Source: Gemmatimonadota bacterium (GTDB lineage Bacteria > Gemmatimonadota > Gemmatimonadetes > Gemmatimonadales > Gemmatimonadaceae). From it: a stretch of 64,000 nt of DNA. The stretch covers positions 1-64,000 of the forward strand of contig JAQBQB010000027.1 in the NCBI GenBank assembly GCA_028287235.1, given 5' to 3'. Numbering within the stretch: position 1 is the first letter of the stretch; every line of letters begins with the position of its first letter. Positions 53,802 to 64,000 of this stretch are shown piece after piece. The translations under genes and the position numbers were made by a program. Below the pieces are notes generated by a model. That model did no database searches. It was given only the letters and a program-made list of their open reading frames with translations, and was not told where the DNA came from.

Positions 53802-54917
53802 GTGGATCCGTCACCAATATTTGGAGCTCGATCGTCCTTGGAAATTTCGTCGTCGCTGCGTCGCACCGTCCGCGCCGCGCTCGCTCTCACCGTGACCACC
53901 GGCCTCATCGGACTGGTTGCCGCGGCAACTCCCGCAACCGCGGGCCGCTTCGTACCCGGGCTAGCCTTTCGCATCTCGTCGTCCCTGCGCGTCTATGGCG
54001 GCGACACGCCGGGCGGGCAGGACGACGAGGTGATGCGCGGCCGCGGCATCGCCGCGAACAATCACGCGCGCATCGAGTTCCTCGCGTTCACGCCCGCGCC
54101 TCAGGGCGTCACGACTGACGACTATCTGATCGCGGTGGACTCGGGCAAAGCGTTCGTTCAGCACACGAGTCCCCTGCGCTACACGCCGGCGACCGACATG
54201 TTCGGCGGTCCGGCGGTGATCGCGCTCGGACGCGTCATGGGCGGCGGTGCGGGACGAGGCGCCGGCGGTGATTCGACGGGCGGCGGCGCGGCGCGCGGCG
54301 GTGCCGGTCGCGGCGGTCGTGGCTTCGGCGGTGGGGGAGGCGGCGGTCCGCCGGGCGGCGCGCGCGGAGGTCGGGGTGGTCGAGCCGGTCGTGGCGGCGG
54401 CACCGGATTCCTGAATCAGCTCGAGCTGCTCGACGTCAACTTCAAGATCGAGAAGCTCGGCGCGGGCGACGCGATGGACGGCCGGCCGACACAGCACTAT
54501 CGGATCACGACCGACTATCGCGTCGTGTGGGGCGGCCAGGGCTTCCCCGCGCACGCCGTGACGGAGATCTGGTCGACGCAACTGCCGACGAACATTCCGA
54601 ATCCGTTCGAACCGTTGATCGTCGGCGACCAGTCGACGGACGGTCCGCTCATCGAGTACGCGCTCAAGCTGCGCGCCGTCCGCTCGCAGATCGAGGGAAC
54701 GCCGATCAAGGTCGTGACGACGACGACGTTCACCGGCATTCACGACATCGTCGGATTCAGCGGCTACGTCGCCGGCGATCCGTCGCTCGACAAGGTGACG
54801 GTCGTGCAGCAGACGCAGATCACGGGCATCGCGCCGGCGGAGGTGGATCCGAAGTTGGTGACGGTGCCCGACAACGCCGGCATGGAACCGCCGCCGCCGG
54901 ATCCGTCGTCGCGCTAA
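53802..54917 (+). CDS. Secreted Gly/Arg-rich protein, unrecognised
   Basis: The start is uncertain; GTG at 53802 (DPSPIFGARSSLEISSS) or TTG near 53838 would both precede a signal peptide (LALTVTTGLIGLVAAATPATA). The protein has up to ~371 aa. A domain of beta strands (FLAFTPAPQGVTTDDYLIAVDSG) is interrupted near residues ~145-205 by a very Gly/Arg-rich stretch with little else. The C-terminal part is again beta-rich (HYRITTDYRVVWGGQGFPAHAVTEIW, KVVTTTTFTGIHDIV). I know no family. The Gly/Arg insertion is the same type seen in other exported proteins in this window. Confidence 0.65.
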   Translation: MDPSPIFGARSSLEISSSLRRTVRAALALTVTTGLIGLVAAATPATAGRFVPGLAFRISSSLRVYGGDTPGGQDDEVMRGRGIAANNHARIEFLAFTPAPQGVTTDDYLIAVDSGKAFVQHTSPLRYTPATDMFGGPAVIALGRVMGGGAGRGAGGDSTGGGAARGGAGRGGRGFGGGGGGGPPGGARGGRGGRAGRGGGTGFLNQLELLDVNFKIEKLGAGDAMDGRPTQHYRITTDYRVVWGGQGFPAHAVTEIWSTQLPTNIPNPFEPLIVGDQSTDGPLIEYALKLRAVRSQIEGTPIKVVTTTTFTGIHDIVGFSGYVAGDPSLDKVTVVQQTQITGIAPAEVDPKLVTVPDNAGMEPPPPDPSSR

Positions 54918-54959
54918 CGCTGCCGTAGCAAAACGCAGACACCGGTGCAAATTTCATCG

Positions 54960-55403
54960 ATGAAGAAACTCGTCGCATTCGCCCTGACCGCCGGCTCGAT
55001 TGCCGTGCTCTGCTACCCCACGCGCGGCGAAGGGTCGCGCACCGAGCCGACGCATACGGTGTGGGACAGCGTCTACACCGACTCGCAGACGGTGCGCGGC
55101 GATTCGATCTACAAGGCCACGTGCACCAGGTGTCACGGGCCGGAGCTCAAGGGCGGTGACGACGGATCACCGCTCGCCGGCGACCCGTTCTTCGTGGGCT
55201 GGGAAGGCAAGCCGCTCGCCGGGCTCTATGATCAAATTCGCAATTCGATGCCGCCCGAGAACCCGAAATCGCTGTCGCGCTCGCAAGTCGCCGATCTCGT
55301 GGCATACCTGCTCGCGCAGAATCACTTCCCGGCGGGCCATGCCGCGCTGTCCGACGACAGCGGCCGGTTGAACGACATCAAGATCGTACAGAAGAAGCCC
55401 TGA
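54960..55403 (+). CDS. Small secreted cytochrome c
   Basis: From ATG 54960 (KKLVAFALTAGSIAVL) the protein has 147 aa with a signal peptide. It binds heme through CTRCH in YKATCTRCHGPELKGG, and Met of the pair likely lies in NSMPPENPKSLSR, which then continues LVAYLLAQN, the standard class I pattern. Similar proteins are encoded at 57517 and 61716, so a set of related electron carriers is present here. The neighbouring Gly-rich gene lies 42 bp upstream. Confidence 0.88.
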   Translation: MKKLVAFALTAGSIAVLCYPTRGEGSRTEPTHTVWDSVYTDSQTVRGDSIYKATCTRCHGPELKGGDDGSPLAGDPFFVGWEGKPLAGLYDQIRNSMPPENPKSLSRSQVADLVAYLLAQNHFPAGHAALSDDSGRLNDIKIVQKKP

Positions 55404-55404
55404 G

Positions 55405-55560
55405 CCAGTTGTCATCCTGACCCGGTTGTCATCCTGAGCGCAGCATTGTCATCCTGAGCCGGTTGTCATCCTGAGCCGACTGTCATCCTGAGCGCAGCGA
55501 AGGATCTCTTTCCATAGCGGAGGGATCCTTCGTCGCTTCGCTCCTCAGGATGACATGCTG
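55405..55560. repeat. TGTCATCCTGAGCG repeat cluster
   Basis: Five forward half-sites precede a palindrome with centre CTTTCCATAGCGGA and a reverse arm with an extra CGT (CCTTCGTCGCTTCGCTCCTCAGGATGACA). It lies in the convergent gap between the cytochrome c and the FAD oxidoreductase genes. Confidence 0.85.
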
Positions 55561-55651
55561 CGATGACACGCGTCGATGACACGCGTCGATGACACGCATC
55601 GATGACACGCTTCGATGACATGCTTCGATGACACGCTTCGATTGACACGCC
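55561..55651. repeat. 13-bp tandem repeat, about seven copies
   Basis: The unit CGATGACACGCTT (variants GCGT, GCAT, and one ATGACATG) repeats head to tail about seven times. The sequence GATGACA is part of the reverse half-site, so the tandem may have grown from the neighbouring palindrome by slippage. No reading frame uses it. Confidence 0.85.
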
Positions 55652-55683: not shown

Positions 55684-57348
55684 TCACCCAGGCGGCTTCT
55701 TCGTCGAATCCGCGGGCGTGGGCGGCGGTGTGGGCTCGTACTCCTTCTCGGGAATCCGGAAGACCTTCGCGATCGCCGGATCGCCCTCGTCGCCCAACAC
55801 GCGCGTCGCCACGTAGTTGCCGATCTTCGGCGCGAACTTGAAGCCCTCGGCGTTGCCGCCGGCGGCGATCCAGACGTTGCCCCACTGCGGATGCTTGTCG
55901 ATGATGAAGTTGCCGCTCGACGTCGACTCGTAGTGACAGGCGTGCGTCTGCGCGATCGGCGCGTCCTTGAGCAGCGGAAAGCGATGCGCGATGAAGCGAC
56001 GCGATCCGTCGATGCGCGTCTGGTCCGCCCAACGATCGCTCGTATCCGGATCCTGCTGCGCGAGTGGAACATCCTGCTGCTGGTTGCCGCCGCCACCGCC
56101 GCCGCCCGCACCACCGCGCCCACCGGCGGCGCCACGACCGCCGGCGCCCGCCGCGTTCGAGAGGTTCGAGCCGGTGTCGGTGTTCGGCCGGCCCGGAACG
56201 GGGGCAGTCGGAGGCGCGCTCGGCGGCGCGCCCGCCGCGCCATTCGCCACCGTCTGCCCCGGCGGTGTCGGCGCACGCTCGGCGCCGCGCACGCGGAAGC
56301 CGCGGTTGTCCACCGGCAGCGCCGGCCAGCCCGTCACGCCGGGAAAGTTGTAGCTCGGGAGGTTCGGGAAGGTGAAGCGATGGTCGCCCGCCGGGGTGGC
56401 GAAGTAGCAGACGTAGCCGATCGGCACACGCGTCTTCTTCGCGAACAACTCGGGGAAAGTCTTTCCGAGCCACGGCCCCACGCAGTACACGAAGGTGTCG
56501 GCCCGCAGCGTGGCGCCGGTGTCGAGCGTGATCTCCTCCAGCCGGCCATTAGAGATCTTTGACGGCGTCGCCCGGCCAATCACGAGCTTGCCGCCGAGCT
56601 TCTCGAACACCGCCGACGCGGCCTGCGTCGCCCGCCGCGCGCGCACCACGCCGGCGTCGGGCTCGTAGAGCACCGCGGTGATGTCGTCCATGCCGATCAC
56701 CGGGAAGGACTTGCGGACGTCGTCGGGATTCAGGATCTGATACGGGATCTTGTTCTTGTCCCACCACACCTTGCAGCGGAGCTGGAAGTTGTCCCACTCG
56801 CTGCGCATGATCAGGTCGCCGGTGACGTGAAACAGATTGAGGCGGAGATACTTGCCCCACTCGTCGTCGAAGGCGATCCAGCGTTTCATCGATTCGCGCG
56901 CCCACAACATCCAGAGCTCGCCGAGCTGGCCCGTCTTGTCGCCGTAAGAGGAGCGCACGCCGCGCGTCTCGTCGCCCGACGTCGACCGTGCGTTGCCCGG
57001 TCCATACGCGTCGACGACGGTCACCTTCGCGCCCATCTTCTGCAAGTTCATCGCGGTGAAGCTTCCCCACGCGCCCGCGCCGATGACGACGATCTCCGGC
57101 GACGCACTGGCCGAGCGCACCGAGCGTGTGGCCGTGGCCGAGAGCAGCGGTGCGGCATCGGCGCGTGAGGCGCCGCCGACCAACAGCGCGCCGGCGCCCG
57201 CACCGGCCACCTTGATGAAATCGCGGCGCTGCAGGGCGCTTGGCTCGGTTGACGCGATCGGCGCGGCGGCCGCGTCGATCGAATCGGGTGCCGAAGCCTT
57301 CAGGGGTTTCAGCGGCGAAGAATCGGGCGGCGTCGAATCGTTCGTCAT
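55684..57348 (-). CDS. Tat-exported FAD-dependent oxidoreductase (DAO family)
   Basis: The protein has 554 aa. It has a long N-terminal lead with a Tat motif in ALQRRDFIKVAGAGAGALLV, giving export of a folded flavoprotein. The FAD-binding Rossmann motif is IVVIGAGAWGSFTAMNLQK, followed by DETRGVRSSYG, a DAO-type pattern. C-terminal residues GNFIIDKHPQWGNVWIAAGGNAEGFKFAP form the usual FAD-capping end. An insertion with Gly, Pro and Arg repeats sits near residues ~385-450. Substrate (an amino or N-methyl compound) is unknown. It is convergent with the cytochrome c gene. Confidence 0.85.
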   Translation of the reverse strand: MTNDSTPPDSSPLKPLKASAPDSIDAAAAPIASTEPSALQRRDFIKVAGAGAGALLVGGASRADAAPLLSATATRSVRSASASPEIVVIGAGAWGSFTAMNLQKMGAKVTVVDAYGPGNARSTSGDETRGVRSSYGDKTGQLGELWMLWARESMKRWIAFDDEWGKYLRLNLFHVTGDLIMRSEWDNFQLRCKVWWDKNKIPYQILNPDDVRKSFPVIGMDDITAVLYEPDAGVVRARRATQAASAVFEKLGGKLVIGRATPSKISNGRLEEITLDTGATLRADTFVYCVGPWLGKTFPELFAKKTRVPIGYVCYFATPAGDHRFTFPNLPSYNFPGVTGWPALPVDNRGFRVRGAERAPTPPGQTVANGAAGAPPSAPPTAPVPGRPNTDTGSNLSNAAGAGGRGAAGGRGGAGGGGGGGNQQQDVPLAQQDPDTSDRWADQTRIDGSRRFIAHRFPLLKDAPIAQTHACHYESTSSGNFIIDKHPQWGNVWIAAGGNAEGFKFAPKIGNYVATRVLGDEGDPAIAKVFRIPEKEYEPTPPPTPADSTKKPPG

Positions 57349-57516
57349 GAGGCGGGTCGTCGGTGGGAGGGGTTGGTCGCGAGAAGATGGCCCCCGCGCG
57401 GCGCGAAATCAAACCGCCGGGTGGTCGCCAAACGCCGAACGGGCGATATAATTGGCGGGTACCAATTGGCGAGGGCCGCGCGACAGCGGCCGAACCGACA
57501 CGCGTGGAGGGAGTCG

Positions 57517-58020
57517 ATGCGGGTGAGCCGCTGGAGTACGCTCGGGTGGGCCGCGATGATCGTGGGGTGCGCGAGCGCCGCCGCGACCAACGTGCGCGCA
57601 CCGCTCGGTGCGCGTCTCACGCCGGGCGCGAAGACGGGCGCGCCGGTGCCGCTGCGCAGCGATCCGACCGCGCGCGTGATTCTTTCCAGCGCGCCGGGCC
57701 TGCCGCCGGCATCGTACGCACCGTCGCAGGCCGCGCGCGGCGAGAAGGTCTACGTCGAGACGTGCGGGCAGTGTCACCAGCCGGCGCAGTTCGTGGGACA
57801 GAACTTCGTCGAGTCGTGGAACGACCGGCGAGTGTACGACTTCTACGCGCTCGTGCGCGGCACGATGCCGCTCGACAATCCCGGCGGCTTGAAGGAACAG
57901 GAATACATCGACGTCGTGGCGTATCTGCTCAAGGCGAACAACGCCGCGCCCGGCCTCGACTCGCTGCGCGCCGACACCACCGCGCTGCGCGCGCACAAGA
58001 TCGCCGTCCGAGCACCGTAG
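57517..58020 (+). CDS. Small secreted cytochrome c
   Basis: ATG at 57517 follows GGAGGGA at 57507-57513, a strong ribosome binding site, and is followed by a lipoprotein-like signal (VSRWSTLGWAAMIVGCASAAA), where the cysteine could be lipidated. The protein has 167 aa with CGQCH in VYVETCGQCHQPAQF and Met in RGTMPLDNPGGL. The spacing to the next gene is 33 bp, so the cytochrome and the following propeller protein form an operon, read away from the FAD oxidoreductase gene. Confidence 0.87.
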   Translation: MRVSRWSTLGWAAMIVGCASAAATNVRAPLGARLTPGAKTGAPVPLRSDPTARVILSSAPGLPPASYAPSQAARGEKVYVETCGQCHQPAQFVGQNFVESWNDRRVYDFYALVRGTMPLDNPGGLKEQEYIDVVAYLLKANNAAPGLDSLRADTTALRAHKIAVRAP

Positions 58021-58053: not shown

Positions 58054-59169
58054 ATGCAGCGCATTGCCCAGTCGCCGGTCCGGACACTCGCCGTCGCGCT
58101 GCTCGCGCACGCGACATTCGTCGCGACACTCGCCGCGCCGGCCGCCGCTCAGGCCAACGTCGCGCCGACGAACGACGCGCCGAATCCCTACACCACCATC
58201 GCCGGTTGGGCGAAGATGCCCGAGGGCCGCAGCTGGGGCTCGACGAGCGCGGTGGACATCGACCGCGACGGCACGAGCATCTGGGTGGCCGAGCGGTGCG
58301 GCGCGAACAACTGCGTGGGCTCGTCGCTCGATCCCGTGCTCAAGTTCGACGCGTCGGGCACCATGGTGGCGCACTTCGGCGCCGGGATGATTCTGTCGCC
58401 GCACGGCATCACCGTGGACCGGCAAGGCAACGTGTGGGTCGTGGACTGCGCGTGCACGATCGGCGGCGGCGGTCGCCGAGGTGCAGCCGCGCCACCGCCC
58501 TCGGGTCCGCCCGCCGGCCACCAGATCTTCAAGTTCAGCCCCGACGGCAAGCTGCTGATGACGCTCGGCAAAGCGGGCGGCGCCCGCGAGCCGGACTACT
58601 TCATGGAGCCGAACGCGGTGCTCGTGGCGCCGAACGGCGACATCTATGTGGCCGAAGGCCACTCGTCGCGCCCGGCCACCGATTCGACGCCGGCAAGCCC
58701 CGCGCGTGTGTTAAAGTTCTCGAATGATGGAAAGCTCATCGCCTCGTGGGGCAAGTGGGGCAAAGGTCCGGACGACTTCGACCAACCGCACGCGTTGGCG
58801 ATGGACTCCAAGGGCCGCCTGTTCGTCGGCGATCGCGGCAACAACCGAATCAAGATCTTCGATCAGAGCGGCAAGCTGCTCGACACCTGGTACCAGTTCA
58901 GCCGGCCGAGCGGAATCTTCATCGACGCGAAAGACAACATCTACGTGGCGGATTCGGAGTCGGGGTCGGTGAACAAGCCGCGGACGGACTGGAAGCGAGG
59001 TATTCGCGTCGGGAGAGTCGCGGATGGGAAAGTGACGGCGTTCATACCCGATCCGGCGGAGAATCCGCCGAGCACGAGCTCGGCGGAAGGTGTCGCCGTC
59101 GACAAGAACGGCGTGATCTACGGGGCGGAAGTAGGGCAGAAGGCGCTCAGGCGATACCAAAAGCAGTAA
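58054..59169 (+). CDS. Secreted NHL-repeat propeller protein
   Basis: The protein has 371 aa with a signal peptide (LAVALLAHATFVATLAAPAAAQ). It repeats the NHL pattern seven-fold or so: PHGITVDRQGNVWVVD, PNAVLVAPNGDIYVAEG, PHALAMDSKGRLFVGDRGNNRIKIFD, PSGIFIDAKDNIYVADSES, and a final VAVDKNGVIYGAE. A short Gly/Arg/Pro-rich loop lies after CACTIGGGG. NHL propellers usually bind ligands or proteins and are sometimes lyases; the role here is unknown. It is followed by tandem repeats and a terminator, and converges on the PQQ dehydrogenase gene. Confidence 0.85.
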   Translation: MQRIAQSPVRTLAVALLAHATFVATLAAPAAAQANVAPTNDAPNPYTTIAGWAKMPEGRSWGSTSAVDIDRDGTSIWVAERCGANNCVGSSLDPVLKFDASGTMVAHFGAGMILSPHGITVDRQGNVWVVDCACTIGGGGRRGAAAPPPSGPPAGHQIFKFSPDGKLLMTLGKAGGAREPDYFMEPNAVLVAPNGDIYVAEGHSSRPATDSTPASPARVLKFSNDGKLIASWGKWGKGPDDFDQPHALAMDSKGRLFVGDRGNNRIKIFDQSGKLLDTWYQFSRPSGIFIDAKDNIYVADSESGSVNKPRTDWKRGIRVGRVADGKVTAFIPDPAENPPSTSSAEGVAVDKNGVIYGAEVGQKALRRYQKQ

Positions 59170-59171
59170 AG

Positions 59172-59345
59172 AGCTCGAAGCTGGCAGCCAGCTCGAAGCT
59201 GGCAGCCAGCTCGAAGCTGGCAGCGGGACAGCTCACAGCTCGACGCTGGGGCTGGCCGTATTTCGCCGGTGGCCAGCATCGCGACCCGGAAAGCCAGCCC
59301 CAGCAGCGAGCTGCGAGCTCATGAGCTGCCAGCTCCGAGCTACGA
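59172..59345. repeat. 18-bp tandem repeat and hairpin arms
   Basis: GCTCGAAGCTGGCAGCCA occurs three times head to tail at 59172-59225. Downstream AGCTCGACGCTGGGGCTGGC pairs with GCCAGCCCCAGCAGCGAGCT about 60 bp further on, giving a stem-loop. The repeats lie directly after the NHL gene stop codon, before the terminator. Confidence 0.75.
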
Positions 59346-59412: not shown

Positions 59413-61719
59413 CTACTTCCTCGGCAACGTCAACGCGATCAGCGAGGTGTTATCGCCCGCTCCCGTCGCGAACACGATGTACTGTTTCCCCTGATGCAGG
59501 AACGTCATTGGGACCGCGCTGTTCACCGACGGAATCGGTACCGCGCCCACCTGCTTCCCCGTCGCCTTGTCGAACGCGTAGAGCTTCGGGCCAGCCGGAG
59601 CTCCGGCACCGCCGGCACCGCCGGCACGGCCTCCGCCTGCGCCGCCACGGCCCGCTCCTCGCCCTCCACCACCGCCGCCGCCGCGACCGGTGCCATGAAT
59701 GACGAGCGTCTTCGTCGTGATCACTTCCGGCTGCCCGCCGAGCGCGGGGATCTTCGGCAGCGTGACACCGGCGAAGAGCGGATCATTGCTCGTGACTTCG
59801 CGCCACTGATTGCCGTTCGGCACCCACCACTTCTTGATTCCGCTGTTCATGTCGTACGCCGTGATGCCGCCGTATTCTTTCGGCTTGATGATCGACACGT
59901 TGCCGATCGTCGTCGCGGCAGGCACTCGGCTAAAGCCGCTCCCGCGCCCGGCGCCGTCGGCAGGCGGGGTGTAGCCCGGCGGCGGAGCGGGTGCGCCGAT
60001 CAAGCCACAGCTATCGTGCGGCGACGTGTAGTTCAGCTCCGAGCACGGATCCTTCGCGACGGCGATGGTGCTCATGCCCGACTGGCCGCCGACGTAGATC
60101 ATGCCCGTCTCGGGATCGGCCGCGGTTCCGCCGTCGATGTTCACACCGCCGGCCGCGCCCGGCGCGTACCAGGAGCAGTTGGTCGCCGTTGGTCCGTTCT
60201 TTCCCTTGCTGTTCGCGGGCGACGCGGGAATGAAGTACGGGCCCATGCGGCACCGCTGCGCGAGCTTGAGCGCCGAGTCCTTGATCGCCGGCGTGTAGTC
60301 GATCAGGTCCGTCGCCAGCAGTCCCTGCTGCGAGTAGGGCTCGGGCTTGGTCGGGATCGGCTGCGTGGCCGACGTCTGTTCGCCGGGCACCTCACTCTGC
60401 AGCACGGGCGTCTCGACGATCGGCCAGATCGGCTGGCCCGTCACGCGATCGAGCACGTAGACGAAACCCTGCTTCGTGGTCTGCGCGAGAATTTTGCGCG
60501 GGCGGCCGTCGATGGTGACGTCGAGCAGGTTCGGCGCCATCGGCGTGTCGTAGTCCCAGATGTCGTGATGCACGAACTGGTAATGCCACTTGCGGAGGCC
60601 TGTCTTCGTGTCGATCGCGACGACGCTGTTGCCGAACAGGTTGTCGCCCGGACGATGGCCGCCGTATTCGTCGGTCAGCGGCATGCCGACCGGGATGTAG
60701 ACGAGCCCGAGCTCCGGATCGGCGGAGTACGTCGCCCACGGATCGTTCTTGCCCACGCCGTCGGTGCCGATCTTCGAGCCGTTCTTCCACGTGTCCGCGC
60801 CGAACTCGCCGGGCTGCGGAATGAGATTGAACTTCCAGAGCTGCTTGCCCGAGTGGATGTCGAACCCGCGGATGAAGCCCGGAATGTTGTGCTTGCGAAT
60901 GGGGTAGTAGCCGTGGATCGACGAATTGCCGACGATGATCACGTCGCCGACGACGATCGCCGGCGAGCTGTTCGCGATCTGGCCGTTCGACGGATCGATG
61001 CCCTTGGTGCCGTCGGCGCCCGTCTTCGTGACGGCGTTCCACTTCTCGCCCGGCTTCGCCTTCCGCAACGGCGCGGCTTCGCTCACCTGCAGCGGCCCCG
61101 AGTCGTCGACGGCGAGCGCGACGAACGGATAGCCGAGTCCGAGCTCGAGGTCGACGACGCCGTTCGTGCCGAACTTCGGGTCGCCGAGTCCAGTCTTCGC
61201 GTCGATCGACGCGAGATGATAGCCCGGCGTGATGACGACGACGCGTTCCTGGTTGCCGTCGGTCCAGTAGGCGAGGCCGCGGCCGGCGAACTGGCGCGGC
61301 GCCTTCTGCCAGCGGATGCCTTCGTCGAGGCTCCACTGCCAGAGCGTGGTGCCGTTGGTCGGGTCGACGGCGAACGCCCTGCGGCGCGTAGTCGCGACGG
61401 TGAAGATGCGGCCGTTCGCGAAGAGGGGCGTGGTGCGATAATACTCGTCCTCGCCGTACTTGCCGGCGTCCCACTTCCACGCCACCTGGAGCGAGTCGAA
61501 GTTGGCGGCGTTGATCTGGTCGAGCGCGGAGTAGCGCGTGCTATACGCGTCGGCTCCCCAGTAGCGCCACTCGCCGGGCTTGTTGCCGCGCACGAGCGCC
61601 GCGCCCTGCTTCGCGCTCGATGCGGGCGGGTGCACGAGCACCGCGATCGCGGTGGCGCCGAGCACGCCGGCGAGAGTGGCCATTCCAATCCTGCGCCGCC
61701 TGACCAATCGTGGCGTCAT
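59413..61719 (-). CDS. PQQ-dependent dehydrogenase (quinoprotein)
   Basis: The protein has 768 aa. It opens with an anchor or signal (IGMATLAGVLGATAIAVLV). It then has the repeated W motif of PQQ enzymes: EWRYWGADAYSTRYSALDQIN, LQVAWKWDAG, YRTTPLFANGRIFTVATT, RTVFALDP-like RRAFAVDPTNGTTLWQWSLDEG, TKTGLRKWHYQFVHHDIWDYDTPMAP with HHDIWDYD being the active-site signature, and GTTAYDMNSG. A Gly/Arg insertion lies near residue ~700. It is of the glucose dehydrogenase/alcohol dehydrogenase class, and gives electrons to the cytochrome c encoded four bases upstream. The substrate is not known. Confidence 0.9.
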   Translation of the reverse strand: MTPRLVRRRRIGMATLAGVLGATAIAVLVHPPASSAKQGAALVRGNKPGEWRYWGADAYSTRYSALDQINAANFDSLQVAWKWDAGKYGEDEYYRTTPLFANGRIFTVATTRRRAFAVDPTNGTTLWQWSLDEGIRWQKAPRQFAGRGLAYWTDGNQERVVVITPGYHLASIDAKTGLGDPKFGTNGVVDLELGLGYPFVALAVDDSGPLQVSEAAPLRKAKPGEKWNAVTKTGADGTKGIDPSNGQIANSSPAIVVGDVIIVGNSSIHGYYPIRKHNIPGFIRGFDIHSGKQLWKFNLIPQPGEFGADTWKNGSKIGTDGVGKNDPWATYSADPELGLVYIPVGMPLTDEYGGHRPGDNLFGNSVVAIDTKTGLRKWHYQFVHHDIWDYDTPMAPNLLDVTIDGRPRKILAQTTKQGFVYVLDRVTGQPIWPIVETPVLQSEVPGEQTSATQPIPTKPEPYSQQGLLATDLIDYTPAIKDSALKLAQRCRMGPYFIPASPANSKGKNGPTATNCSWYAPGAAGGVNIDGGTAADPETGMIYVGGQSGMSTIAVAKDPCSELNYTSPHDSCGLIGAPAPPPGYTPPADGAGRGSGFSRVPAATTIGNVSIIKPKEYGGITAYDMNSGIKKWWVPNGNQWREVTSNDPLFAGVTLPKIPALGGQPEVITTKTLVIHGTGRGGGGGGGRGAGRGGAGGGRAGGAGGAGAPAGPKLYAFDKATGKQVGAVPIPSVNSAVPMTFLHQGKQYIVFATGAGDNTSLIALTLPRK

Positions 61720-62240
61720 GGTTTCTTCCTCTTTGCGGTGGTGGAGCTGCTGGCAGAAGCCTTCTTGGTCTCGATGCGAAAGCGCTTCAACGAATCCGCA
61801 TCGGGGTACAGCTCGTCCTCGCCGGTCGGCAACGCGTTCATCTTGAGCAGATAGGCGACCACGTCGGCGACGTCCTCGGGCGCGAGACTTCCGGGATCAT
61901 TCTTCGGCATCCTGGTGCCAACGAACACGAACAGATCGGAGAGCGGTTTGCCGCGCCAGAACTTGGCGAACGTCGCGCCGGTGTGCGACTCCGCGGCGTG
62001 GCACGACTTGCAGCTCCCCGCGTACACGTTCTTTCCACGGCTCGCCTGCTCCGCGGTGTAGACACCGACCAACGTGGTCAGCCCGGCGGGCGCCGAGACG
62101 CCTTTCGTGGCTGCGTGTTGGGCGGTCGACGTACGCATCGGCGCGATAAGCATGCACGCGATGAGGGCGGGCGTCCACCTCCGGTGTCGCGGAAAGGGGC
62201 GCCGGTCAATTGGCGTGCGCGTTGAAGTCATTGCGGTCAA
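61716..62240 (-). CDS. Cytochrome c partner of the PQQ dehydrogenase
   Basis: The protein has 174 aa (ATG at 62240 or 62231), with a signal region (RRWTPALIACMLIAPMRTST). Heme binds at CKSCH in YAGSCKSCHAAESHTGA; the axial Met is probably in GTRMPKNDPGSLAPEDVADVVAYLLKMN. The stop overlaps the PQQ dehydrogenase start by four bases (ATGA), strong evidence of an operon and of direct electron transfer from the quinoprotein. The C-terminus is Lys/Ser-rich. The upstream HupE-like gene ends six bases earlier. Confidence 0.9.
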   Translation of the reverse strand: MTAMTSTRTPIDRRPFPRHRRWTPALIACMLIAPMRTSTAQHAATKGVSAPAGLTTLVGVYTAEQASRGKNVYAGSCKSCHAAESHTGATFAKFWRGKPLSDLFVFVGTRMPKNDPGSLAPEDVADVVAYLLKMNALPTGEDELYPDADSLKRFRIETKKASASSSTTAKRKKP

Positions 62241-62246
62241 TTGCTT

Positions 62247-63650
62247 CTAAACTGTTTCTTTGATCTGTTTCAACTCGAACAGGCGCGCCGTTTCGTTCTC
62301 GGCTTCGACTTTCGCCGTGCGACTCGGCCCAATGAGCCGCCCGTACAGCTCGAACATCGCCCAGGCCGCTCCCGCGATGACGAGCAGCAACATGAGCCCG
62401 CGCATGGCGCTCGCGGCCAGAGCGGCGTCGAAGACCGGTATTTGGAATCGGTACTCCCGCAACACCGCGCCGCGGCTGAGCATCCAATGCCACGCCGTGT
62501 GCGCCACGATCGCCGACAGGATGATCGTTCCCATACGCTCGGCCACGACGTGCTTGAACGCCCAGCTCAATGCCGGCACGGCGAGCGCGATGACGAGCAG
62601 CTGGCCGAGCTCCACCCCGACGTTGAACGAGACGAGCGACGTGAGCAGATGCGCGCCGGCGAACTGCATCGACTCGCGCAGCGCGAAGGAGAAGCCGAAG
62701 CCGTGCACCAGTCCGAAGCCGAAGGCGATGATCCACCGTCGCTCGAGCTTCGCGCCCACGATGTTCTCGAGCGCCATGTAGACGATCGACAGCGCGATCA
62801 GCACCTCGATGAGCGGGGGGAACCAGAGCGCGTCGGGCGCGAAGCCGTAGGCCGAGGCGAGCAGCGTGATCGAGTGCGCGACCGTGAACGACGTGATGAT
62901 CGCGACGAGCGGCCGAATCTTCCGGAAGGGGATGACCAGGCAGAAGATGAACAGCAGGTGATCGATGCCGTCGAGAATGTGCTCGAAGCCGAGCCGCACG
63001 AAGCGCAGCGCGGCTTGATGCCAGCGCGGGTCGAGGCGAATCAGCCCCGGATCGCCCACGTACTCGAACGCACGCTCGGCGCCGTTCGGCGGCACGAAGC
63101 GCAGCACCGTCGTGGTACGAACGCCCAGGCGCGCGAAGGCCGGGTCGATGGAGAAGCGCGAGCGGTCGGAGGCGATGGGGTACTCGAGCACCACGTCGAG
63201 CATCGCCTGCTTCCACATGAGCTGCGTCTCCGGCGGCAGCGGCAGGCCGGTCACGTGGGAAACGGCGCCCGCATAGTCCGCGAACGAGCGGTCGGAGGGC
63301 AGCGAGACCTGCGTCGCGACGATGCGCGGCGCGGGGAGCGGCGCGTCGTTCTCGTATAGCGTGACGTCGTCGGCCAGCCAGACCTTCGCGGCGTCGTGCA
63401 GGAGCGGCGCGGCGGCCTCGAAGTCGAGATAGCCCGGACCCCGAGCCGGGAAGTTGACGTCGCGCATCGCCTCGAGAGGCACGCGGAGCACCAGCCGGAG
63501 CGTGTGCCCTTCGGGCTTCACGAAGGCGAGGACGGTGACCCGGCTGGGGATGTCGTGCGCGAACGGCGTACCCGGCAGTGCGAGCACCAGCGCGAACGCG
63601 ATCGACAACGTCACACCTAGACGGATCAGACTCCGGCGGGATAGAATCAC
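62247..63650 (-). CDS. HupE/UreJ-like membrane protein with large periplasmic domain
   Basis: The protein has 467 aa. A signal peptide (GVTLSIAFALVLALPGTPFAHD) precedes ~200 residues of beta-rich periplasmic sequence (VLAFVKPEGHTLRLVLRVPLEAM). The C-terminal half holds about seven transmembrane helices in HupE/UreJ order, with conserved metal-site residues in FEHILDGIDHLLFIF, FTVAHSITLLA, VYMALENIVG and HGFGFSFALRE. HupE/UreJ proteins import nickel or cobalt in hydrogenase and urease systems. There is no hydrogenase or urease here; it leads an operon with a cytochrome c and PQQ dehydrogenase. Its cargo is therefore unclear. Confidence 0.85.
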   Translation of the reverse strand: MILSRRSLIRLGVTLSIAFALVLALPGTPFAHDIPSRVTVLAFVKPEGHTLRLVLRVPLEAMRDVNFPARGPGYLDFEAAAPLLHDAAKVWLADDVTLYENDAPLPAPRIVATQVSLPSDRSFADYAGAVSHVTGLPLPPETQLMWKQAMLDVVLEYPIASDRSRFSIDPAFARLGVRTTTVLRFVPPNGAERAFEYVGDPGLIRLDPRWHQAALRFVRLGFEHILDGIDHLLFIFCLVIPFRKIRPLVAIITSFTVAHSITLLASAYGFAPDALWFPPLIEVLIALSIVYMALENIVGAKLERRWIIAFGFGLVHGFGFSFALRESMQFAGAHLLTSLVSFNVGVELGQLLVIALAVPALSWAFKHVVAERMGTIILSAIVAHTAWHWMLSRGAVLREYRFQIPVFDAALAASAMRGLMLLLVIAGAAWAMFELYGRLIGPSRTAKVEAENETARLFELKQIKETV

Positions 63651-63746: not shown

Positions 63747-64000
63747 ATGAAACGTCGCACCCTACTCGTCGGCGGCAGCCTCGTTCTGTCGGCCGGCGCT
63801 GTCGCACTCGCGCAGGTCCGCCCCGGCGCCGACCGCGGCAGAGCCAAGCCGCCCGGCTCCGCACAGGCGCCGACGTTCGAAGTCGAGATGCTCTGGCCCA
63901 AGCCGATGCCGAACCACTGGATCCTCGGCTCGGCCACCGGCGTCGCGGTCGATTCGCGCGACCACATCTACGTCGTGCATCTCACCGACAGCTTCAATGC
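63747..64000 (+). CDS. Secreted propeller-type protein, 5' part only (cut by window end)
   Basis: ATG at 63747 follows AAGGAG at 63735-63740, and the frame remains open to the window end. The N-terminus is a signal peptide (RRTLLVGGSLVLSAGAVALAQ), and the visible sequence reads FEVEMLWPKPMPNHWILGSATGVAVDSRDHIYVVHL, the opening strands of an NHL or six-bladed propeller. It is divergent from the HupE operon. The full length and function are not visible. Confidence 0.75.
   Translation, partial: MKRRTLLVGGSLVLSAGAVALAQVRPGADRGRAKPPGSAQAPTFEVEMLWPKPMPNHWILGSATGVAVDSRDHIYVVHLTDSFN

Follow-up and report, generated by a model that had tools for sequence, protein, structure and literature searches.

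HupE/UreJ-2 permeases of the anglerase type were described in 2025, and in the accessible part of the report their physiological clients are not established (PMC12537917). The structure 9GCE is the Cu-bound Ang-1 domain of such a protein. According to the same part of the report, Ang-1 contained Cu2+ by electron paramagnetic resonance (EPR) and Cu+ in the crystal, the second ligand is Asn41 in Ang-1 and was proposed to be Asp33 in Ang-2, the membrane histidines of Ang-2-HupE were predicted to be His194, His201 and His229, and Ang-1 was found above all in Pseudomonadota, Ang-2 in Actinomycetota alone (PMC12537917). Here we analyzed a locus of a Gemmatimonadota bacterium (contig JAQBQB010000027.1) in which a HupE/UreJ-2 gene leads a compact block with genes for a cytochrome c and a pyrroloquinoline quinone (PQQ) dehydrogenase. 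The window, i.e. the whole stretch of DNA under study, comprises the first 64,000 of the 64,320 bases of its contig, and the block is located on the minus strand between positions 59413 and 63650. We favor, with moderate confidence, the reading that the HupE protein captures and imports a transition metal in connection with an exported metal/redox module.

The first gene encodes an anglerase-type HupE/UreJ-2 protein

The HupE gene (62247-63650, minus strand, GTG start) encodes a protein of 467 amino acids with a signal peptide, an Ang-type beta-sandwich and a membrane domain. In Pfam the protein matched PF13795 (HupE_UreJ_2) with 150.6 bits at a cut-off of 24.5; this family occurs only once in the source genome, which consists of 5.73 Mb in 31 contigs, and NCBIfam had no name for the protein. 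The predicted mature form starts with His32 (codon at 63555-63557, minus strand; PFA|HDIP, with the cleavage site read by eye), which is called His1 in the following.

For comparison two sets of sequences were used. In the phylum set, 61 HupE rows represent the window and 60 loci from other genomes; these 60 stretches were picked by hand and blind to their neighbors, not as a random draw, from 123 genomes whose HupE is close (E <=1e-87), out of 298 genomes of the phylum, of which 175 match at 0.001. The named set contains the best 80 of at least 567 confirmed stretches that were found with two peptide patterns of the clade. Of these 80 loci, 77 contained enough of HupE for the alignment, which together with the window has 78 rows. 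Both sets overlap, with at least six contigs of identical length in each (for example 55,916 and 203,915 bases). Judged by the record titles of the best 80 of at least 567 stretches, the members of the clade belong mostly to Gemmatimonadota and Acidobacteriota, and Gamma-, Beta- and Alphaproteobacteria as well as Marinimicrobia are also represented.

A histidine directly after the apparent signal peptide is present in 60 of 61 rows of the phylum set (exception L094), and His1 is found in 76 of 78 rows of the named set (exceptions L160 and L168). The membrane domain contains the motif H224-x5-D230-H231 (HX5DH; mature H193, D199 and H200; 62958-62981, minus strand), which we take to be the hallmark of HupE/UreJ nickel permeases; each of the three positions is conserved in 60 of 61 rows of the phylum set and in 77 to 78 of 78 rows of the named set. 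In addition, H259, H316, H384 and H388 are nearly invariant in both alignments. Asp33 of the mature protein (D64), by its number a candidate for the second ligand proposed in Ang-2, occurs in 58 of 61 rows, and the mature residues H193, H200 and H228 (60 of 61 each) fit the histidine pattern of Ang-2-HupE.

The mature protein was modeled with AlphaFold2 at a mean predicted local distance difference test (pLDDT) score of 93.9 and a predicted template modeling (pTM) score of 0.84. The best match of this model in the PDB was 9GCE (Foldseek E 2.1e-5; Z 11.2, 3.0 A over 133 residues), with 13% identity in the structural alignment. The exported Ang-like domain comprises the mature residues 1-177 (63027-63557, minus strand). 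Within the Ang fold the next match was the zinc-binding protein ZrgA (Z 9.8). Matches of the membrane part to a TIC-complex subunit and to MFS-type carriers had Z values below 10, which is the chance level for helical bundles, and were not used. On the basis of the predicted mature His1 and the fold match to 9GCE we therefore assign the first gene to the anglerase-type HupE/UreJ-2 proteins, which goes beyond the generic HupE of the initial annotation.

A PAL-like beta-propeller is the constant neighbor of HupE

HupE has a constant neighbor in several phyla, an NHL beta-propeller that resembles the zinc enzyme PAL. A divergent propeller gene is located within 1 kb of HupE in 56 of the 61 phylum loci. 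For the analysis of neighborhoods these loci were grouped into the family of the window, taken as Gemmatimonadaceae (f1, 35 loci including the window), f2 with five loci and f5-f7 with 21 loci; the propeller was found in 34 of 35 loci of f1 and in 18 of 21 loci of f5-f7. Among the 80 named loci it is divergent in 60, upstream on the same strand in six, elsewhere in one and not present in 13. With a threshold of E <=1e-60, which is passed in 140 of the 298 genomes, HupE and propeller occur together in 122 genomes, HupE alone in one, the propeller alone in 18 and neither in 157. The Fisher tests for this and the following co-occurrence ignore relatedness and are descriptive only.

The window itself was scored as a miss because of the contig end. 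The divergent gene at 63747-64000 (plus strand), cut by the window edge and broken at the end of the contig, is a paralog of the PAL-like propeller, and the matching remainder was detected at the end of contig C27. On C27 this remainder is followed by a His-bearing propeller (81% to the reference), as in L036. The assembly breaks within a propeller gene, and contigs C3 and C27 appear to be neighbors. The paralog at the window edge has no histidine at the position of H93 (NHG). The corresponding paralog in L036 contains a Gly/Arg-rich insert near the point where the contig of the window breaks.

The model of the propeller (numbering of L164) reached a pLDDT of 94.6. Its top match in the PDB was PAL (3FVZ; Foldseek E 4.4e-19; Z 32.8, 2.6 A, 285 residues, 24% identity), with other NHL propellers following within about one Z unit (31.7). 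In a profile alignment H36-R37, H93 and Y164 of the propeller fall on the PAL chain positions 41-42, 94 and 163, which we take to be Arg533, the zinc ligand His585 and Tyr654. H213 and H310 were matched to the other two zinc histidines of PAL by motif only. The four histidine positions of the propeller are kept in 58 to 61 of 62 rows. No NCBIfam family scored over its cut-off for the propeller, and a search of PMC found nothing that joins HupE and the NHL repeat.

In Gemmatimonadaceae HupE leads an operon with a cytochrome c and a quinoprotein

The second gene of the block (61716-62240, minus strand) encodes an exported mono-heme cytochrome c of 174 amino acids with the heme-attachment motif CKSCH (61998-62012, minus strand) and matches to PF13442/PF00034. 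The third gene (59413-61719, minus strand, ATG start) encodes a PQQ quinoprotein dehydrogenase of 768 amino acids (PF01011, 476.7 bits) with a Gly/Arg-rich insert at about residues 675-710. The three-gene operon of the initial annotation was confirmed in its reading frames: HupE and cytochrome are separated by 6 bp when the TTG start at 62240 is assumed and by 15 bp with the alternative in-frame ATG at 62231, and cytochrome and quinoprotein overlap by 4 bp. A scan for promoters revealed a single promoter-like site (63618-63647, plus strand; 0.3 expected in shuffled sequences), compatible with the divergent NHL gene, and none on the strand of the operon. The terminator scan found a single terminator-like site, on the plus strand, versus 2.7 expected.

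In 31 of the 35 loci of the family the order HupE-cytochrome c-quinoprotein is kept, with the cytochrome downstream of HupE in 32 and the quinoprotein in 31 loci, and it persists at HupE identities to the window copy down to about 48%. In f5-f7 neither the quinoprotein nor the cytochrome was found downstream in any of the 21 loci. Families of open reading frames from outside the block occur in at most 13 of the 61 stretches (about 9 kb on each side), although the clustering under-counts, as HupE itself was recovered in only 48 of 61. General gene order therefore seems to be poorly kept, and the recurrence of the block in 31 of 35 loci, versus at most 13 of 61 for outside families, is not a chance grouping of three genes.

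At the level of genomes, a close quinoprotein (E <=6e-231) is present in 56 of 298, whereas 172 match at 1e-50. HupE and the close quinoprotein occur together in 53 genomes, HupE alone in 70, the quinoprotein alone in three and neither in 172. Among the 53 genomes with both, 46 have the pair within 2 kb, one has it 11.6 kb apart and in six the genes are on separate contigs, some of them at contig ends. The pairing in other genomes on which the initial annotation had made its proposal depend is thus conserved. The dehydrogenase is not the general client of HupE, because it is missing from 70 of the 123 genomes that contain a close HupE.

Near HupE, on either side, L100, L118-L120, L126, L141, L162 and L167, from Acidobacteria and others, contain more distant quinoproteins (32-62%). 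Counting any quinoprotein within 3 kb of HupE, 15 of the 80 named loci (the best 80 of at least 567) have one.

HupE and cytochrome are fused in part of the loci

A single stop-free frame that runs from HupE into a CxxCH cytochrome was found in 11 of the 61 phylum loci, all within the 35 loci of the family (L063, L068, L070, L073, L076, L081, L083-L085, L092 and L093), and also, among the 77 named loci checked, in L132 and L150. His1 is kept in all 11 fused HupE proteins, as HEIP or HEVP. In a tree built from 77 HupE rows, 13 of them fused, the fusion label has to change four times, with three of the changes forced by supported branches; each may stand for a gain or a loss. Five of the 13 fusions were examined, and in all five a hydrophobic segment lies between HupE and the heme motif. 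This linker resembles the signal peptide of the cytochrome itself, and it may form an extra membrane helix or be cut.

The quinoprotein and its cofactors

The closest relatives of the quinoprotein in the PDB are PQQ alcohol dehydrogenases, and it shares 26% identity with E. coli Gcd over 423 columns. It scored below the curated cut-offs of TIGR03074 (283 bits vs 832.65), TIGR03075 and TIGR04528; membership in the latter, acido-empty-quinoprotein A, was rejected at 202 bits versus a cut-off of 650.

The catalytic Asp389 and the 'extra' Asp391 (WDYD, 60547-60558, minus strand) are present in 33 of 33 quinoproteins; WDYD is also the sequence of lanthanide enzymes. The extra Asp, which the initial annotation had regarded as the mark of lanthanide enzymes, is there, but E. 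coli Gcd has both residues as well (WDMD), and we discarded it as a lanthanide marker. The stretch after GN(G/S) carries, as we assume, an acidic metal ligand in other quinoproteins. Among the 33 rows no conserved Asp or Glu was found at residues 265-280; as read from the alignment, the acidic metal-ligand stretch has been lost. His269 (codon at 60913-60915, minus strand) is located in this stretch, in which E. coli Gcd and most paralogs examined have an acidic residue; it is present in all 33 quinoproteins and also in L162, L194 and L195. The named loci contain eight distant quinoproteins near HupE; seven of them have no histidine at this position, and L162 has it.

For comparison we used the paralogs L176-L193; L181, one of 30 paralog rows in all, could not be aligned and was dropped, and the counts were made by eye on the other 17 of this series. 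One of them is located about 8 kb from HupE (L193, the same gene as L080), the rest lie farther away or in genomes without a close HupE. A Glu or Asp directly before the position of His269 (GNSAEQGY and similar) occurs in 12 of the 17, and in 13 of the 17 the catalytic WD is replaced by WN, i.e. Asp by Asn. Two paralogs from the source genome itself, L200 and L201, have retained an acidic residue in the stretch of the metal ligand.

In the source genome neither PqqC nor, over its cut-off, PqqE was detected, and a comparison by eye showed that PqqC, which 34 of 298 genomes have, is absent from all 56 genomes that contain the close quinoprotein and present in two of the 123 with HupE. The source genome contains one clear homolog of PqqU (G000:C4:85458-87413; 35%, 290 bits; next match 18.7 bits). 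PqqU is widespread in Gemmatimonadetes and scavenging of PQQ has been reported, according to the accessible part of the source (PMC12124388). With no PqqC or PqqE over cut-off and this homolog, the quinoprotein therefore probably works with imported PQQ. The idea of an 'empty' quinoprotein without PQQ was weakened by the PqqU-like gene.

For urease alpha the source genome yielded two fragments at about 20 bits, against a cut-off of 680, and a NiFe hydrogenase was not found, so that a nickel client for HupE was rejected with respect to these enzymes; cobalt/B12 and nickel superoxide dismutase were not searched. The initial statement that nickel and cobalt enzymes are absent consequently holds genome-wide for these two families, the only ones covered.

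A proposed model of metal capture linked to an exported redox module

Starting from the observed gene order, fused frames and conserved residues, and from the modeled Ang and PAL-like folds, we propose that the periplasmic Ang domain with its free N-terminal histidine would take up a transition-metal ion of the Cu, Ni or Zn class and pass it on to the membrane domain with the HX5DH motif, which would import it. We infer the binding of metal by HupE, its class and the inward direction from these features. The general partner of HupE would be the exported PAL-like metallo-beta-propeller encoded beside it, usually in divergent orientation, and this propeller would hold a metal of its own. At the Gemmatimonadaceae locus the quinoprotein would hand electrons to the exported cytochrome c. 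Permease, cytochrome and dehydrogenase would be made together, in some relatives with permease and cytochrome from one open frame. Any reason for coupling uptake to oxidation is conjectural.

Several points weigh against this reading. Sequence searches of the PDB with HupE, using phmmer and a profile, gave no match, the Ang-1 chain included, and the structural alignment to 9GCE has an identity of 13%. His1 is missing from two rows of the named set and one row of the phylum set. The propeller is missing within 1 kb in five of the 61 phylum loci and in 13 of the 80 named loci, although seven of these 13 have fewer than 800 bases upstream and contig ends perhaps explain them. In f2 the propeller is present in four of five loci and the quinoprotein lies downstream in one (in one more elsewhere within 2 kb). 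As the quinoprotein is downstream in one of these five loci and in none of the 21 loci of f5-f7, it has therefore little bearing on the general role of HupE and is a local partner. The bootstrap of the fusion tree, with a 5-95% range of four changes, was unsettled. To our knowledge there is no metal assay for any member of this HupE clade, and a metal imported into the cytoplasm is not obviously useful to exported enzymes.

The locus suggests a so far unexplored link between metal uptake and extracellular oxidation chemistry and would tie trace-metal capture to periplasmic oxidation in Gemmatimonadota. It combines a strong gene-neighborhood link of an anglerase-type permease to a PAL-like propeller, a cytochrome and a quinoprotein with natural permease-cytochrome fusions, and it includes a quinoprotein clade with histidine in a metal-ligand stretch where acidic residues are usual.

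Alternative explanations

The neighbors could stay together by inertia after shared descent and have separate roles, as HupE and quinoprotein are paired almost exclusively in a single family (quinoprotein downstream in 31 of 35 loci versus 1 of 26 in f2, f5, f6 and f7). The order is, however, kept although HupE identity drops to about 48% and other families of open reading frames are rarely shared, and the repeated fusion on the HupE tree also argues against it; we regard this explanation as doubtful, with a small but real chance. Eukaryotic surface reductases reduce iron and copper for uptake, and here electrons from the quinoprotein could likewise pass via the cytochrome to a metal such as Cu2+ at His1, with import of the reduced ion. 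The in-frame fusions in 11 of 61 loci with four label changes on the tree, the hydrophobic segment before CxxCH in five fusions, which would place the heme in the periplasm together with the Ang domain, and the two oxidation states of copper in Ang-1 (in the accessible part of PMC12537917) are in line with such a reductive capture. The downstream genes are nevertheless absent from all 21 loci of f5-f7 and the linker looks like the old signal peptide of the cytochrome and may be cut, so this remains unlikely in our estimate. In its boldest form, a machine for redox-driven import, the quinoprotein would oxidize a substrate outside the cell, the cytochrome, fused to the permease in some species, would carry the electrons to the transition metal at His1, and the reduced ion would be imported partly for the PAL-like propeller and possibly for the quinoprotein; we regard this as rather unlikely. 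HupE might also serve mainly as a scaffold that anchors the cytochrome and quinoprotein in the membrane and not as a working transporter, in agreement with the fusions and the tight operon; conserved histidines and aspartate of the transport type, with His1 in all 11 fused forms, and the lack of any chain to anchor beside most HupE proteins outside the family make it quite improbable.

Two explanations place the metal in the quinoprotein. It could use a transition metal instead of calcium or a lanthanide, with HupE as part of the supply: His269 occurs in 33 of 33 proteins beside a position that is acidic in 12 of 17 paralogs and not far from the Asp in E. coli Gcd, L200 and L201 of the source genome have an acidic residue in this stretch, and the catalytic Asp is kept. 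On the other hand, the alignment contains an indel at about 266-280 and H269 may not face the metal, five of the 17 paralogs have no acidic residue yet gained no histidine, seven of the eight distant quinoproteins near HupE have no histidine, and HupE is expected to import and not to export, which leaves little probability for this use. The supply of calcium or a lanthanide by HupE, the proposal of the initial annotation, had the operon and the presence of Asp391 in its favor. It did not withstand the comparison with E. coli Gcd, which also has this Asp, nor the missing conserved acidic residue between G264 and G281; moreover, His1 is a chelator of the transition-metal type, and HupE is widespread without the enzyme. 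A search of PMC found nothing that joins HupE and lanthanide. We consider the proposal highly improbable and retain transition-metal capture and import by HupE as the preferred reading.

Surroundings of the block

Downstream of the block a convergent NHL beta-propeller gene (PF01436; 58054-59169, plus strand), which is often found beside the block, is followed in the direction of lower coordinates by a second cytochrome c (57373-58020, plus strand), a FAD-dependent oxidoreductase (DAO; 55684-57348, minus strand) that adjoins the block in part of the family, and a third cytochrome c (54945-55403, plus strand), the latter three assigned by Pfam. Between the convergent genes an 18-bp unit is repeated about 2.9 times with 100% matches (59172-59224), and further short repeat arrays are located at 55399-55493 and 55549-55650. 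Low-complexity Gly/Arg-rich (RGG-like) inserts occur in the exported proteins encoded at 59413-61719, 55684-57348, 53802-54917 and 58054-59169. In L037-L043 putative genes of the molybdenum-hydroxylase type (a two-Fe-2S and a large subunit) lie near the block.

Comparison with known systems

With E. coli Gcd the quinoprotein of the window shares the motif HHDxWDxDxP, whereas the metal-ligand stretch differs. The PQQ propeller and the catalytic Asp are common to XoxF/MxaF and the quinohemoprotein alcohol dehydrogenases; unlike these enzymes, the window enzyme has no conserved acidic residue at 264-281, and its cytochrome is a separate protein. PAL (3FVZ) and the neighboring propeller have the fold in common, with residues aligned to what we take to be the Arg, one zinc-binding His and the Tyr of PAL, but the identity is 24% and other NHL propellers score nearly as high. 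HupE/UreJ nickel permeases share what we take to be their HX5DH motif; the HupE of the window adds an exported domain, and its source genome contains neither a urease over cut-off nor a NiFe-hydrogenase gene. The term 'PQQ' does not occur in the main text of PMC12537917. As far as the accessible part of that report allows the comparison, the closest systems are the anglerases (PMC12537917; 9GCE), with which the window protein shares the signal peptide, His1, the Ang fold, the HupE/UreJ-2 membrane domain and the membrane histidines. It differs from them in that its clade occurs mostly in other phyla, in having no sequence match to 9GCE, in its PAL-like, cytochrome and quinoprotein neighbors and in the fusions with the cytochrome.

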